A program made the translations under genes and the position numbers. From contig CABXSA010000008.1 of NCBI GenBank assembly GCA_902514765.1, positions 1 through 35,918 on the forward strand: 35,918 nt of DNA, written 5' to 3'. The notes below the pieces were generated by a model that searched no databases, was not told the DNA's origin, and saw only the letters and a program-made list of their open reading frames with translations. Source of the stretch: an uncultured SAR86 cluster bacterium. GTDB taxonomy: Bacteria; Pseudomonadota; Gammaproteobacteria; Magnimaribacterales; AG-339-G14. Positions 10,974-17,435 of this stretch are shown piece by piece (positions within the stretch are counted from its first letter, which is position 1; every line of letters begins with the position of its first letter).

Positions 10974-11118
10974 CTTGTATATATTCTTTGAGAAGGGTTT
11001 TCCTTTTTAAAAATAGGTATCTTATGTCTTTTCTTTATTTAACATAATATATATTATACGAATGTATATATATTGAAAGATTAGGATTTAAATAGCCTAT
11101 CCATTCCAAACATATTAA

Positions 11119-11145
11119 GAAAAGCCGCTATAAAGGCGGCTTTTC
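11119..11145. terminator. Bidirectional intrinsic terminator hairpin
   Basis: GAAAAGCCGC-TATAAAG-GCGGCTTTTC: perfect 10-bp stem, 7-nt loop, A tract/T tract on either side, between convergent genes. Confidence 0.85.
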
Positions 11146-11161
11146 TATTTGTAAATGAAGG

Positions 11162-11893
11162 CTATCTTTCAGCAGGATAAGCTTTAACTAATTGAGCTAA
11201 TGTTGAATTAACTAACTTACGGATGTTTCCTACCTTCCTATTGAATGTTTTAAATTCATTTGATGCATAAACTTCTTCTAGGGAATCGTTTAAGTCTTGA
11301 ATAGAATTAGCACCGTTATACAACATATGTGAAACATATTTATTTCCATAAACTACTCTATTAATACCGTACGATCCGAACGAATCTGCAGTAGATTCTG
11401 TTAGCTGTTTGTAAGCTTCTAGGTAAGATGCCTGATTTCCATTTTTTACCTTAACTTCAATGTTTGAAAAGACTGTATTCAATCTCCAATCACCAGCTTC
11501 TAAAACTAGCTCGGTAACGTAATTGTAATAATCTTCACTAACAGACGTCTTAGCAAAAGCAACATTCATTTCTGATGATGCAGAACAAGAAGCAAAGATA
11601 TTTTGTCCTTTTTGCATCATGTCATAATCTTTATAAGCAACCAAAATAATATGTGAGTGACCTCCTCCCATCCGAGAATAAAGACCAACATTTGCTCCTG
11701 ATTCATCTCTCCATTTTGCAGCACATGATGAAGAGTCAAAGGTCTCAATAGCAGCTACGAACCCTGCAGGATTAGTTACATTAAAAAAATGGAATTCATA
11801 AACACCACTCCCGGGTCTCAAAGTATTCTCATCTGAAAATAAATTAAAAGACAATAATCCAGTAAGGATTAAATAAATAATTTTATTTTTCAT
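11162..11893 (-). CDS. Secreted protein of unknown function, possible tandem dimeric alpha/beta-barrel (ABM-like) fold
   Basis: Signal peptide MKNKIIYLILTGLLSFNLFS; two repeat-like halves; 9-bp gap to the upstream 11903 gene. Confidence 0.7.
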   Translation of the reverse strand: MKNKIIYLILTGLLSFNLFSDENTLRPGSGVYEFHFFNVTNPAGFVAAIETFDSSSCAAKWRDESGANVGLYSRMGGGHSHIILVAYKDYDMMQKGQNIFASCSASSEMNVAFAKTSVSEDYYNYVTELVLEAGDWRLNTVFSNIEVKVKNGNQASYLEAYKQLTESTADSFGSYGINRVVYGNKYVSHMLYNGANSIQDLNDSLEEVYASNEFKTFNRKVGNIRKLVNSTLAQLVKAYPAER

Positions 11894-11902
11894 ATTTTAC
11901 CT

Positions 11903-12595
11903 TTAATTTCTTGTGTAAATTGTTTCACAATACTCAAAAGTTTCTTCAACTTCTTCGTCTATGTATTGCTGAGCATCATCCCAAGTCTCAGCCCAACCTG
12001 CTCCTCTAAAATACTCATCTATAATTTTTCCAGTTTCTGCAGCAGTTTTAGTAATAGTTCTTACATGAAACATTCCAGTTTCAGCAAATCCACCACCAAG
12101 TTGAGCAAATACTCCAATCATCATATTGTGACCTGCATCATCAAGTTCTTTTTGCAGTTTTGTCATTGAATTTGAAAAAGCCTGCCAATCATTAAGCTTT
12201 ACTCTCCAAAGTCTGTGATATCCATTTCTAGCTTCAAAGTCTTTTAAAGGTTTAAAGGCTGATGAATATTTAACAGTTCTCAATTGTTTAAGATCAAAAT
12301 CAGCACTTGCTGGATCATATAACTCAATAAAACCTATGGCTTTCTCAACGCTAGAAAAAGCATTAAAGATAAACATTTGACCCTGATAGCTCTCCCCTGT
12401 TCTAGTTTTACAATAACCAACTTGTTCAGATCCGAAGTTATCGAAATCTACATTTTCTTTTAAAAAATCAACGTACTTATCAATATCTTTAGCTTGGACC
12501 ATAAGCGTAGTGAACGCCCCTTCTGGAATAGCGCTAAGATTTATTGAAAATATTGAACAAAAAAGAATTAATAAAGATATTTTTATATTTTTCAT
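11903..12595 (-). CDS. Secreted protein of unknown function, possible tandem dimeric alpha/beta-barrel (ABM-like) fold
   Basis: Signal peptide MKNIKISLLILFCSIFSINLSA; same length and layout as the 11162 product. Confidence 0.7.
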   Translation of the reverse strand: MKNIKISLLILFCSIFSINLSAIPEGAFTTLMVQAKDIDKYVDFLKENVDFDNFGSEQVGYCKTRTGESYQGQMFIFNAFSSVEKAIGFIELYDPASADFDLKQLRTVKYSSAFKPLKDFEARNGYHRLWRVKLNDWQAFSNSMTKLQKELDDAGHNMMIGVFAQLGGGFAETGMFHVRTITKTAAETGKIIDEYFRGAGWAETWDDAQQYIDEEVEETFEYCETIYTRN

Positions 12596-12652: not shown

Positions 12653-13117
12653 TCAAATTAGGTCATTTTTTTTGAACAAGGAAAAAACAAATAGAAGAAA
12701 TAAGTACAAAGTCATATAAGGTGCGTAAACCATTCCAGGAGTAATTCCGTCTGAATATATAGAATCATTAACAATTGGGTTTGAATTAAATACTCTTATA
12801 GACCATTCAACTAAAAAGGCTAATATTATTAAAGGTGTCAAAGATCTGTATCTAAAAATTACAACCCATGAGAAAGCGCAAAAGATTAGCTGAATTAACC
12901 CCCATGCAGAAAAAAAAGCATATACCAGCGGCATTGGGTCAGGATTACCAGTTAATACTTTTACATTAGCAATACCATGCAATCCAAATTCCTCAAAAGA
13001 CATATGAATTACAGAACGCCAGGTCATTAATAATAAGAATGGAATGAAGGCATAAAAAATAAATTTATAGCCTAAATAATTATTATCTGCAGATTTTGGA
13101 AAAAGCATTTCAAACAT
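12653..13117 (-). CDS. Integral membrane protein of unknown function (154 aa)
   Basis: Four hydrophobic segments; starts 2 bp after the HLD-I stop, last gene of a four-gene operon-like array. Confidence 0.7.
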   Translation of the reverse strand: MFEMLFPKSADNNYLGYKFIFYAFIPFLLLMTWRSVIHMSFEEFGLHGIANVKVLTGNPDPMPLVYAFFSAWGLIQLIFCAFSWVVIFRYRSLTPLIILAFLVEWSIRVFNSNPIVNDSIYSDGITPGMVYAPYMTLYLFLLFVFSLFKKNDLI

Positions 13118-13119
13118 AA

Positions 13120-14208
13120 CTAATTATTCTTTTTAATGAAATTTGCTAGTAGGTCAGATAGTTCTTTGGGTCGAGTCCATTGATAAAAGTGCCCTCCTCC
13201 TATATGGGGCGCGCTTTTAGCATTGGGACACATGTTCAAAACATCCCTTTCAGCACCATTGGTTACTGGATCATCTCCTGCAAAAACACTTAAAAAAGGT
13301 TTATTCCAATTTTTAAAAATTTCTCTTGCTTCTTTTACTGCATTTAAGGACTGATCTGGAATTGTGGGAACATGACTCGGCATAGCTCTAGGTCCCATTT
13401 TAAAAGATGGATCAGGAAACGGAGCTTCATAGGCATGATCTATTACTTTATTTAAAGGAAATAATTTTCTTAGTCCTGATTTAAGAAATAAGTAAGAAAT
13501 AAGAGTTTTTAAAGTGGAATTTTTTTCCATCATATTTGACATCAAAAAACCAATTGGTAAATCTTCTGTATCCCAACAAAATTTCTGCCAATACATAAAC
13601 TTTAGTGCTGGACTGGCAGGTGTTTTATCATCAGAAAGGTTCTTTCCATCCATTTGACTGACTTCTTTTTGCATGGACATAACAGTAAGTTTTATATCGC
13701 TATCTCTGAACGCTTTTACTTTATCTATTACATCTTGAGGAGTATCTGGATTATAAGGGAGGCCTGTATTTCCCATTGCAACCTTTAGAAATCTATCAGG
13801 CTCATTTGCCACTACCCTTAGCCCTATAAGACCTCCCCAATCCTGACCAAAAAAAGTTAAGTCTTTAAAATCATTTACTTTAAGCCAATCAGTCATCCAA
13901 TCAACTTGTCTTTGATAAGAATAGTCTTCTCTGAATGCTGGTTTATCTGACTTTCCATAACCGGGAAGATCAGGAGCAATAACTCTTATTCCTGCACCTG
14001 CTAAAAAAGGAATCATTCTGCTGTATAAATAACTCCAAACTGGTTGGCCATGCATAGCTAAGAGAATTGGACCATCTTTAGGCCCTTCATCAACGTAATG
14101 AATTCTCAATTCAGAGCCATCATGAGTTTGTATTGTTGTGTAGTGAGGCTTGAAAGGATAATTTTTTATATTCTCAAAAGCGCTATCTGGAGTTCTTAAA
14201 ATCTTCAT
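13120..14208 (-). CDS. Haloalkane dehalogenase family alpha/beta hydrolase, HLD-I-like
   Basis: RTPDSAFENIKNYPFKPHY N-terminus, HGQPVWSYLYSRMIP, FFGQDWGGLIGLR nucleophile elbow, FAGDDPVT catalytic acid, GGGHFYQW catalytic His. Confidence 0.82.
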   Translation of the reverse strand: MKILRTPDSAFENIKNYPFKPHYTTIQTHDGSELRIHYVDEGPKDGPILLAMHGQPVWSYLYSRMIPFLAGAGIRVIAPDLPGYGKSDKPAFREDYSYQRQVDWMTDWLKVNDFKDLTFFGQDWGGLIGLRVVANEPDRFLKVAMGNTGLPYNPDTPQDVIDKVKAFRDSDIKLTVMSMQKEVSQMDGKNLSDDKTPASPALKFMYWQKFCWDTEDLPIGFLMSNMMEKNSTLKTLISYLFLKSGLRKLFPLNKVIDHAYEAPFPDPSFKMGPRAMPSHVPTIPDQSLNAVKEAREIFKNWNKPFLSVFAGDDPVTNGAERDVLNMCPNAKSAPHIGGGHFYQWTRPKELSDLLANFIKKNN

Positions 14209-15134
14209 AATTCAAATTTAGAGTTAGATAAAGATTCACATACAGAATTAAATTCTTGCATAGTTTGTTTGATGATTTGCTCTACTGGTAGCACTTCATT
14301 TATGAGTCCAATAGATTGACCTGCTAAAGCTGGGGCTGCATTCATATCGCCACCAAAATACAAATCTTTTATTCCACTAAGAGCTGACATATCCATCAAC
14401 CCTTCTTCATAAATCTTATCAGTTAAGTCTGTCTTTAAAGCTCTAATACATGGTTTTGCTTTTTTATTAAGTATGTAAGTACCTTGTTCAGATCCATTTA
14501 CAATTGCACATTTGAAATTTTCATGAACAGGGCTTTCTAGAGAAGAGACAAATCTTGTGCCCATTTGAATACCATCAGCACCTGCTGCAAAAGCAGCTGC
14601 CATTCCAATTCCATCGACAATACCGCCAGCAGCAACGATGGGTAGATTGGTATGCTTACGAATAGATTGAATTAAAACATGTAGGCCTACTTCTTCAGGA
14701 CTTTTGAAACCCCCTCCTTCTGTTCCTTCAACAACCAGTCCATCTACACCGGCATCTACTGCCTTAAGGGCTCCTGCAAGGCTTGGAACTGCGTGAAATA
14801 CTTTGATATCTGCTTCCTTTAGTTTATGAATATATTTTGCTGGATCTCCTGCTGAGGTGGTAACAAATTTTACATTTTCTTCAATTACAACTTCCAACAT
14901 ACTTTCGTCTGAAAGAAATAGAATTGGAAGATTTACTCCAAATGGACTATTCGTAAGGGAAGCCATTTTTCTTATTTCATCTTTACATTGATCTACTTCT
15001 CCCGATGAAGTTTCAATAATTCCAAAACCCCCAGCATTTGATACAGCTGAAGCGAGTTGACTCCTAGCAATCCAGCCCATTGGTGATTGAATGATCGGAT
15101 ATTTGCAACCCAACATTTCAGTTATTCTATTCAT
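14205..15134 (-). CDS. Nitronate monooxygenase / 2-nitropropane dioxygenase family FMN protein
   Basis: PIIQSPMGWIA, VEGTEGGGFKSPEEVG, LPIVAAGGIVDGIGMAAAFAAGADGIQMGTRF. Likely start MNRITEMLG. Confidence 0.85.
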   Translation of the reverse strand: MNRITEMLGCKYPIIQSPMGWIARSQLASAVSNAGGFGIIETSSGEVDQCKDEIRKMASLTNSPFGVNLPILFLSDESMLEVVIEENVKFVTTSAGDPAKYIHKLKEADIKVFHAVPSLAGALKAVDAGVDGLVVEGTEGGGFKSPEEVGLHVLIQSIRKHTNLPIVAAGGIVDGIGMAAAFAAGADGIQMGTRFVSSLESPVHENFKCAIVNGSEQGTYILNKKAKPCIRALKTDLTDKIYEEGLMDMSALSGIKDLYFGGDMNAAPALAGQSIGLINEVLPVEQIIKQTMQEFNSVCESLSNSKFEL

Positions 15135-15136
15135 TA

Positions 15137-16162
15137 TTACTCCACTAAAGATTGACAATTAGTTGCCGTTAAAAAACCTAATACTTTTTCCTGATTTTCA
15201 TCATCAAGACTCCTGAATTCATCTCTTATCCAGTCTAAGCACTTAGCTTGATATGGAAATGATTTTTGTTTCCAAGGATAACCCGCAAGATCAACAGACC
15301 ATTCCTTTTTAACTTCATTTATGGCTTTATAATTTTCTATCATGGTTGGTATATAGGAAGTTGATAATTCCTTGAAGAGATCATGGATTGAGTCGCTAAG
15401 AGAATCTAGAGATTTATTTTCTTCTGAGTAGTTTAATCCTCCCCTATCTTCTAACGTGCTTACCCAAGCAACGGTTCTGGGCGAAACTTCATAAGCTATT
15501 TTTCTGGGAGTAGGATCAAATCCTACTAATTGAGTAAATTGCCCATAAACTGCAAAATCACAGGATGATGGAAAATTACCAAGAAGGAAAGGTTGTTCTT
15601 TAAAATGTTCTTCAAAAATAGTAAGTACTTTTTTATAGCTATTGTCTATAAATTCAGCAGTATCATTATTAGAACCAACAACCCATAGTCTATCTATTTG
15701 TCTTTTTGCAAAATGCTCTTTAAAAAAGGCTAACTCATCGTCTTTTAAATTACTGTTTATACCCAGAGGTAGAATAGTTCCTGCATTATCAGCATCCTCA
15801 TCAAAATGCCACCTATAGTGAAACATAAACTTTGTACACCACTCATCGCCAAAATCTTCCAAGACAAAATTTATAAATTTTAGTGCTGGGTCTTTGGGAA
15901 GAACTGATCTATCTGGGTATTTTTCTTCAAACTCTCTTATAAGCGGCGTTGAATCAGTTACTGCAGTTGGTTGACCATCTCGATCTAATATAAAAACTGG
16001 TAAAAGAATAGGTTTTGGAGGTTCAATATTCATCTTCTCAAGAACATCTTCCGGTTGACCCCAAATTACTTCGTATGGAATTCTTTTATATCTAAGATAT
16101 GCAAGCATCTTCCTGGTGTATGGTGATGCTACATTTCCTATGAGTTTTATTTGGCCTGTCAT
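15137..16162 (-). CDS. Glutathione S-transferase family protein (~341 aa, extended)
   Basis: N-terminal thioredoxin-fold signature LIGNVASPYTRKMLAYLRYKRIPYE, LLPVFI cis-Pro loop, TDSTPLIREFEEKYP; all-helical C-terminal part. Confidence 0.82.
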   Translation of the reverse strand: MTGQIKLIGNVASPYTRKMLAYLRYKRIPYEVIWGQPEDVLEKMNIEPPKPILLPVFILDRDGQPTAVTDSTPLIREFEEKYPDRSVLPKDPALKFINFVLEDFGDEWCTKFMFHYRWHFDEDADNAGTILPLGINSNLKDDELAFFKEHFAKRQIDRLWVVGSNNDTAEFIDNSYKKVLTIFEEHFKEQPFLLGNFPSSCDFAVYGQFTQLVGFDPTPRKIAYEVSPRTVAWVSTLEDRGGLNYSEENKSLDSLSDSIHDLFKELSTSYIPTMIENYKAINEVKKEWSVDLAGYPWKQKSFPYQAKCLDWIRDEFRSLDDENQEKVLGFLTATNCQSLVE

Positions 16163-16219: not shown

Positions 16220-16248
16220 AGAAAGGAGACCTAACTAGTCTCCTTTCT
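16220..16248 (-). terminator. Hairpin, probable terminator downstream of the signal-peptide dehalogenase
   Basis: AGAAAGGAGAC-CTAACTA-GTCTCCTTTCT: perfect 11-bp stem, 7-nt loop, 18 bp beyond the minus-strand stop at 16266; weak U tract. Confidence 0.55.
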
Positions 16249-16265: not shown

Positions 16266-17366
16266 TTAATTTTTAGCTGGTAAATCCTCTACTGGCCTTC
16301 CTTGTATAAAATCACTAATTATTTGTGCAAGCTCAGGACCAACCTCTTCTTGTACAAAATGACTTGCTCCTCCTAAAGTTATAACAGTTGGATTAGGAAT
16401 ACGTTCAAGGAAGTCAGCTTTCATAGTAAGAGTAATTCTTTCATTTTCTCCAAAAGCTACTAAGAAAGGTTTGTCCCATTTTTCATATACTTCTTTCCAT
16501 AGTTTTTCATTTTCTGGTAGTTGAGTTGGAATAAGATAAGGCCAAATATGAGCTCCTGCTTTATATGAACCTGAAGGATACGGAGCTTCATAAGCATAAG
16601 CTTCCTCTTTTGATAAATCTATCCTACCAAAATTTTCAATTATGCCGGTTATATTCATATCTTCTGCATAATATGAATAAGCTATCCAATTACTAAACAT
16701 CGAAATTCCTATAAAAGGGGAAGGATTTTCAACAGTTAGAGCATCTTTCGCTTTCGCCATTAACTCTTCAAAGGTAATTGGTCCAATCCACCAAACTCTT
16801 AACTGAACAAATTTTTCAAATAGCCATGCTGTTATGCCAGATCTAGCAACCATTCCGGTATTTGATACAACTACATGACTAAAACGATCGGGTAATTCCG
16901 CAACAACTCTTAAACCAACCAAACCTCCCCAGTCTTGACCAAAGAAAGTTGCATTTTGAAGATCGAGGTTTTCAACTAATTGCTTCATTACATCTACATG
17001 ATGTTTGTAAGAATAATCATATTTTGAAATAAACTTATCTGATTTACCAAAACCAACACAGTCTGGGACAATTACTCTGTGCCCTTGTGCAGTAAGTACA
17101 GGTATCATTTTTCTAAACAGATAACTCCATGCAGGTTCACCATGAAGAAGAAATATGGGATCAGCATCCCTCGGCCCTTCATCAAGATAGTGAATTCTCA
17201 ATCCATCAATCATCATGTAATTAGGTTTAAAAGGATAATCTTTCAGATTTTCAAATCTTTCATCAGGAGTTCTTAAAACACCCTCTTTAATTTCTTCACC
17301 ATTTAAATTAGCTAATAAGAAAAAATTTAAAATAAAAGCTATCAACAAATTCTGTACTAATTTCAT
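16266..17366 (-). CDS. Secreted (periplasmic) haloalkane dehalogenase family protein, HLD-I-like
   Basis: Signal peptide MKLVQNLLIAFILNFFLLANLNG; RTPDERFENLKDYPFKPNY, HGEPAWSYLFRKMIP, FFGQDWGGLVGLR, GGASHFVQEE. Start taken at MKLVQN. Confidence 0.85.
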   Translation of the reverse strand: MKLVQNLLIAFILNFFLLANLNGEEIKEGVLRTPDERFENLKDYPFKPNYMMIDGLRIHYLDEGPRDADPIFLLHGEPAWSYLFRKMIPVLTAQGHRVIVPDCVGFGKSDKFISKYDYSYKHHVDVMKQLVENLDLQNATFFGQDWGGLVGLRVVAELPDRFSHVVVSNTGMVARSGITAWLFEKFVQLRVWWIGPITFEELMAKAKDALTVENPSPFIGISMFSNWIAYSYYAEDMNITGIIENFGRIDLSKEEAYAYEAPYPSGSYKAGAHIWPYLIPTQLPENEKLWKEVYEKWDKPFLVAFGENERITLTMKADFLERIPNPTVITLGGASHFVQEEVGPELAQIISDFIQGRPVEDLPAKN

Positions 17367-17410
17367 ATTTTTTATATCCTTGCCATGATAGTTCAATTAA
17401 ATATAAAATA

Positions 17411-17427
17411 TGACAGTATAACTGTCA
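17411..17427. promoter_or_regulatory. Putative TetR-family operator (inverted repeat)
   Basis: TGACAGT-ATA-ACTGTCA, perfect 7-bp arms, between divergent starts of the dehalogenase (17366, -) and the TetR gene (17436, +). Confidence 0.75.
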
Positions 17428-17435
17428 AAACTTTT

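Follow-up and report, generated by a model that had tools for sequence, protein, structure and literature searches.

The window (the whole stretch of DNA analysed, 35,918 nucleotides) comes from SAR86, an abundant, uncultured lineage of the surface ocean. In it, a gene for a TetR-family regulator (tetR, plus strand) diverges from a gene for a haloalkane dehalogenase-like protein (HLD1, minus strand), and the 69-bp intergenic space between them (positions 17367–17435) contains a perfect inverted repeat. This arrangement raises the question of which protein reads the repeat and how many genes are controlled through it. A previous sequence-only reading proposed an autoregulating TetR repressor that also controls its divergent neighbour, with a regulon that may be just these two genes.

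The genome of the window (G000, completeness 68%) was compared with 15 other genomes of its genus (n = 16) and with 24 from g2, g4 and the sister genus g3, which belong to the same family, i.e. 40 family genomes in all. It groups with SAR86 single-cell genomes and MAGs. Sequence comparison shows the following: the site itself, its conservation, its overlap with promoters, its co-occurrence with tetR at the locus, the sites elsewhere, and the persistence of those sites in genomes without tetR. The features are listed in Table 1.

Table 1. Features of the tetR/HLD1 locus (positions in the window) and further operator sites of the genus (positions, where given, as contig:position in G000).
Feature	Position	Strand	Basis or remark
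Conserved cluster protein	11162..11893	-	conservation; no Pfam match
Terminator-like hairpin behind last gene of series	11118..11146	-	sequence
Conserved cluster protein	11903..12595	-	conservation; no Pfam match
Small membrane protein-like ORF	12653..13117	-	conserved in cluster
HLD2, second haloalkane dehalogenase-like protein	13120..14208	-	NCBIfam haloalkane dehalogenase, above cut-off
Nitronate monooxygenase-like protein (NMO)	14205..15158	-	PF03060
Glutathione S-transferase-like protein (GST)	15137..16162	-	PF13417
Hairpin GAAAGGAGAC-N7-GTCTCCTTTC in HLD1/GST gap	16221..16247	-	10-bp perfect stem; degenerate in orthologues
HLD1, haloalkane dehalogenase-like, signal-peptide-like N-terminus	16266..17366	-	NCBIfam haloalkane dehalogenase, above cut-off; closest solved structures 6f9o, 5esr
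Candidate tetR promoter TTGCCA-18-TAAAAT	17380..17409	+	weaker than HLD1 promoter
Predicted HLD1 promoter TTGACA-17-TATATT	17400..17428	-	hexamers and spacing same in 9/9 orthologues
Palindromic operator (predicted)	17411..17427	.	sequence and conservation in orthologues
TetR-family regulator, 190 aa	17436..18008	+	PF00440; predicted TetR fold
Site B, before sulfatase	C17:2528		1 mismatch
Site C, before DUF3604, then a presumably P450-like gene (named by eye)	C7:32103		2 mismatches
Site D, before Amidohydro_3			
Site E, before glucose/sorbosone dehydrogenase, divergent to acyl-CoA dehydrogenase			
Site F, before short-chain dehydrogenase (SDR)			
Site G, before Baeyer-Villiger-type monooxygenase	C1:116531		
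Site H, before flavin oxidoreductase, divergent to MBL-fold protein and second DUF3604-like protein	C1:6362		
Site I, before a presumed acyl-CoA dehydrogenase-like gene, divergent to a presumed VOC-like gene (both named by eye)	C35:3086		

The repeat reads TGACAGT-ATA-ACTGTCA, with perfect 7+7 arms and a centre of three bases, as the earlier reading had described it. It lies 44 bp from the HLD1 ATG (17366) and 8 bp from the tetR ATG (17436); the earlier reading gave 45 and 9 bp. The start chosen for tetR agrees with its orthologues, which align from MNKLKKDGRK at that position. No further copy with fewer than three mismatches is present anywhere in the window, in line with the claim that there is no second full copy; the next-best matches have three mismatches (4 matches in total, 0.96 expected). 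When the 69 bp were shuffled 5000 times with dinucleotides preserved, a repeat of this class (7-bp arms, spacer of at most 3, at least 3 G/C per arm) turned up twice; the whole window has five of them. On their own, these shuffle statistics are modest. What settles the matter is conservation in related genomes: the palindrome is real, a conserved site of the repressor type.

TetR is found in 8 of the 15 other genus genomes, with 72%–78% identity and the same synteny. The palindrome, together with the HLD1 frame TTGACA-17-TATATT, is kept upstream in all nine genus orthologues (window included). Seven of the nine have a second palindrome, 25 bp nearer to tetR and abutting its start, while the window and G005 have a single one, on the dehalogenase side. 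The G005 tetR shows a frameshift; indels interrupt tetR, HLD1 and other genes of this genome (loci L012 and L020), a pattern that resembles sequencing error more than the loss of genes.

Six genomes of g3 have a TetR homologue (38%–41% identity) whose recognition region, IAKEAKIGTRTIFRHFKD, matches that of the window TetR exactly. Its gene directly faces a GST-NMO-HLD2-membrane protein series. At the equivalent position there is a 17-bp palindrome, TGACAT-N5-ATGTCA, with the same outer half-sites (two of the six have TGTCAT on one side). The earlier reading had staked its proposal beforehand on conservation of the repeat in orthologous loci, and it passes this test in 9 of 9 genus orthologues and 6 of 6 sister-genus homologues.

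Where the locus lacks tetR it also lacks the operator (G004 and G009 in the genus, G024 and G025 in g3). The two are present together in 15 genomes and both absent in 4, although these counts represent fewer independent events. The GST gene of g2 and g4 belongs to a different operon, which has no such site. This joint presence and absence bears on the possibility that a genus-wide regulator alone reads the palindrome everywhere, the neighbouring TetR acting elsewhere or through another sequence. Such a regulator would account for the sites at other loci, which persist in genomes without tetR, but it leaves unexplained why operator and tetR are either both present or both absent here, and why a separate form of the palindrome abuts the gene of the sister-genus homologue, whose recognition helix is identical. 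We consider it rather unlikely; binding by the neighbouring TetR is preferred.

The TetR assignment itself is based on the helix-turn-helix domain TetR_N (PF00440, 26.7 bits; cut-off 24) and on an AlphaFold model, which displays an all-helical TetR fold (pLDDT 83.9). The best PDB matches of the model are TetR regulators, including KstR and FadR. The spacing of 69 bp to the divergent neighbour falls inside the limit of <200 bp within which TetR regulators usually repress that neighbour (PMC3511530).

The predicted HLD1 promoter matches the sigma-70 consensus at 11 of 12 positions. Its −35 box and spacer are covered by the palindrome, one arm of which supplies the −35 box. The expected start of tetR transcription, derived from a weak predicted promoter, falls inside the palindrome; the ribosome site of tetR is indistinct. 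Since the palindrome overlaps the −35 box and spacer of one promoter and the start of the other, a dimer bound to it could block both. A conserved palindrome overlapping both promoters, as in a TetR divergon, is present, with the tetR promoter being a weak prediction. A scan flags the palindrome as terminator-like on both strands. A terminator or RNA hairpin is, however, almost certainly the wrong interpretation: the palindrome precedes genes and covers a −35 box, its remaining copies likewise occupy promoter regions, and the stem has only three G-C pairs. The TetR-type regulator, the operator-like palindrome and the divergent autoregulatory layout proposed at first are supported by the PF00440 match, fold, spacing, promoter overlap and conservation. 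An autoregulating TetR divergon at this locus is, as judged by these sequence features, well supported.

The mechanism that we propose is as follows. A dimer of the neighbouring TetR most likely binds the palindrome, which sits on the HLD1 operon promoter, over its −35 box and spacer, and on the tetR transcription start, and would thereby sterically repress tetR as well as the catabolic operon on the opposite strand. Repression would reach HLD1 and then, by read-through, GST, NMO, HLD2 and the genes that follow. TetR would release the operator on binding a catabolic substrate or metabolite; that this might be a halocarbon is no more than a guess. The site would be a member of a regulon sharing TGACA-N7-TGTCA at about nine loci, part of which a second regulator would read. 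Taken as a whole, the probable explanation of the locus is steric repression that a catabolic ligand relieves, within a regulon read in part by another protein.

The likely target of the palindrome is a same-strand operon of up to seven genes led by HLD1, with read-through presumed. HLD1 scores 318 bits with PRK00870 (cut-off 265), and its nucleophile Asp-Trp (GQDWGG) and catalytic His (SHFVQE) align with those of 6f9o and 5esr. The late catalytic-acid Asp of these solved relatives is absent from HLD1; all 11 genus HLD1 sequences compared have a Glu instead (FGENERIT). Because of this replacement HLD1 is termed dehalogenase-like. The gap between HLD1 and GST is 103 bp and contains a hairpin and a conserved AT-rich block, and for this reason read-through into GST is put forward as an inference. 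The hairpin, which is best developed in the window, is a possible attenuator and may weaken read-through.

The operator is not confined to the regulator's own locus, as it would be in a local one-target regulon. The strict pattern TGRCAGT-N3-ACTGYCA occurs in 16 of 16 genus genomes and in 0 of 24 in the three other genera; a reversed control pattern gives zero matches. The looser pattern TGACA-N7-TGTCA yields 2–7 matches per genome in the genus and 1–6 in g3 (control matches, 0–1). In g2 and g4 it yields 0–3 per genome, and the two g4 matches inspected are within coding sequence. Nearly all genus sites inspected are intergenic, the exceptions inside genes being L218 and L219. Further copies were obtained by a profile search on sequence alone, at the same loci. 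Five further gene sets with the operator are present in G000, with some copies degenerate. In g3, the shifted or a mixed operator stands before a 49% HLD1 homologue, DUF3604, sulfatase and an RND-type efflux operon, the last (L205–L207) with a membrane-fusion-like gene first and the same kind of operator.

Thus the proposal of a two-gene regulon is not supported: the operon has up to seven genes, the operator precedes about eight further gene sets, and it persists without tetR. By these comparisons the palindrome is one copy of an operator that the genus has at about nine sets of catabolic genes.

Five loci, A, B, D, F and G, have the palindrome joined to TTGACA (or TGGACA)-17-TATATT. This fusion is what one would expect if the palindrome belonged to an extended promoter, served by a special sigma factor or an activator, and were not a repressor operator. 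Loci C, E, H and I, however, have the palindrome without that frame, e.g. directly before the DUF3604 start codon, and both arms are conserved while the centre is free, so that an extended promoter is very unlikely and a repressor operator is retained as the preferred interpretation.

Two observations concern the surroundings of sites B and D. In several cases (site B: L077, L080, L083, L089; site D: L078, L092, L097) the operator is directly behind an apparent tRNA gene ending in CCACCA; other genomes have a different upstream neighbour, with the operator still next to its gene. The site B sulfatase (L077, L080, L082, L083 and others) falls into two well-separated allele groups within one genus, with the same operator ahead of both, which suggests exchange of the sulfatase gene.

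Seven genus genomes, some of them 91%–93% complete, lack TetR. Four of these are without the whole GST cluster, two have the cluster minus tetR, and the contig of G006 stops at that point. Sites B–H have on average 0.96 mismatches in tetR-less genomes vs 1.03 in tetR-bearing ones. The three central bases vary freely while the arms stay intact; something still selects for the arms. Because the operator persists in genomes without tetR, the window TetR cannot be its only reader; and because the sites there are equally intact, the reader in those genomes must, by this comparison, be another regulator. This second regulator perhaps also serves the other loci generally, and a reader serving sites elsewhere could also serve the tetR/HLD1 site, if such a reader is needed.

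These genomes also weigh on the opposite proposal, in which the window TetR is sole regulator of the whole regulon and the sites in tetR-less genomes are recent relics. TetR and the operator code are indeed found in the same two genera. Intact arms and drifting centres in seven genomes, some nearly complete, make relics unlikely, and the genomes lacking tetR are dispersed through three target-gene trees, albeit with weak branch support. A sole TetR is accordingly regarded as quite improbable, and a regulon read partly by a second regulator is favoured.

Which protein this might be was sought among the other TetR_N proteins of the genus: a protein of 194 aa which we take, by eye, to be SlmA-like, a protein of ~214–231 aa termed TetR(ii), and one stray match in G007. 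The SlmA-like protein, although most genomes of the genus seem to share it, was set aside since the site known for SlmA differs from TGACA-N7-TGTCA. A GntR reader, suggested by the likeness of the GT-N3-AC core to FadR-type GntR sites, is excluded: PF00392 is found in 0 of 40 family genomes, with 12 of 14 controls positive. TetR(ii) is a candidate on the strength of its position in g3, where its gene follows a copy of the operator and belongs to the DUF3604 operon. Against this, its recognition helix differs from that of the window TetR, the palindrome is absent from its own promoter in the genus, and it has no match in G004. In G000 the TetR(ii) gene (L139, contig C14, 1471–2116) is split by a frameshift in an A/G run, either a sequencing error or a real pseudogene.

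A further-reaching possibility, which we raise tentatively and would sooner doubt than accept, is that two TetR paralogues read one operator code, TGACA-N7-TGTCA, of a SAR86-specific catabolic regulon: the operon-borne, patchily distributed TetR of the window and a resident one that may be TetR(ii). The inner bases of the code would have shifted from TGACAGT to TGACAT between the two genera, in parallel at unlinked promoters.

The locus resembles divergons of the tetR/tetA type in having the regulator divergent to its presumed target at <200 bp and a palindrome over both promoters (PMC3511530), and most orthologues likewise have two sites in tandem. The target in tetR/tetA is a pump, whereas here it is a dehalogenase-GST-NMO operon, and the same operator recurs at about eight unlinked loci, and genomes that lack the regulator have it too. 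KstR (sterol catabolism) and FadR of Bacillus (fatty acids) match the window TetR in fold and, as here, have one operator before many catabolic genes; their sequence identity to it is only ~16%, and their known operators differ from the SAR86 operator. DhaR, in Rhodococcus, is a TetR-type repressor that controls a haloalkane dehalogenase cluster. It is similar, by description, in being a TetR-type regulator that adjoins a haloalkane dehalogenase gene; unlike in the DhaR cluster, the dehalogenases here resemble 6f9o/5esr and DhlA and are within a GST-NMO operon. A literature search on a SAR86 regulon, a dehalogenase regulator, DhaR and the operator described here found nothing relevant, and the regulon in SAR86 is apparently undescribed so far.

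The divergon by itself is ordinary; the interest, which is moderate, is in the regulon and in the second reader that the operator would need in genomes without the neighbouring TetR. For SAR86 the comparison provides a testable operator and a list of about nine gene sets. These operator-sharing sets, for the breakdown of complex organic compounds, are probably controlled together.
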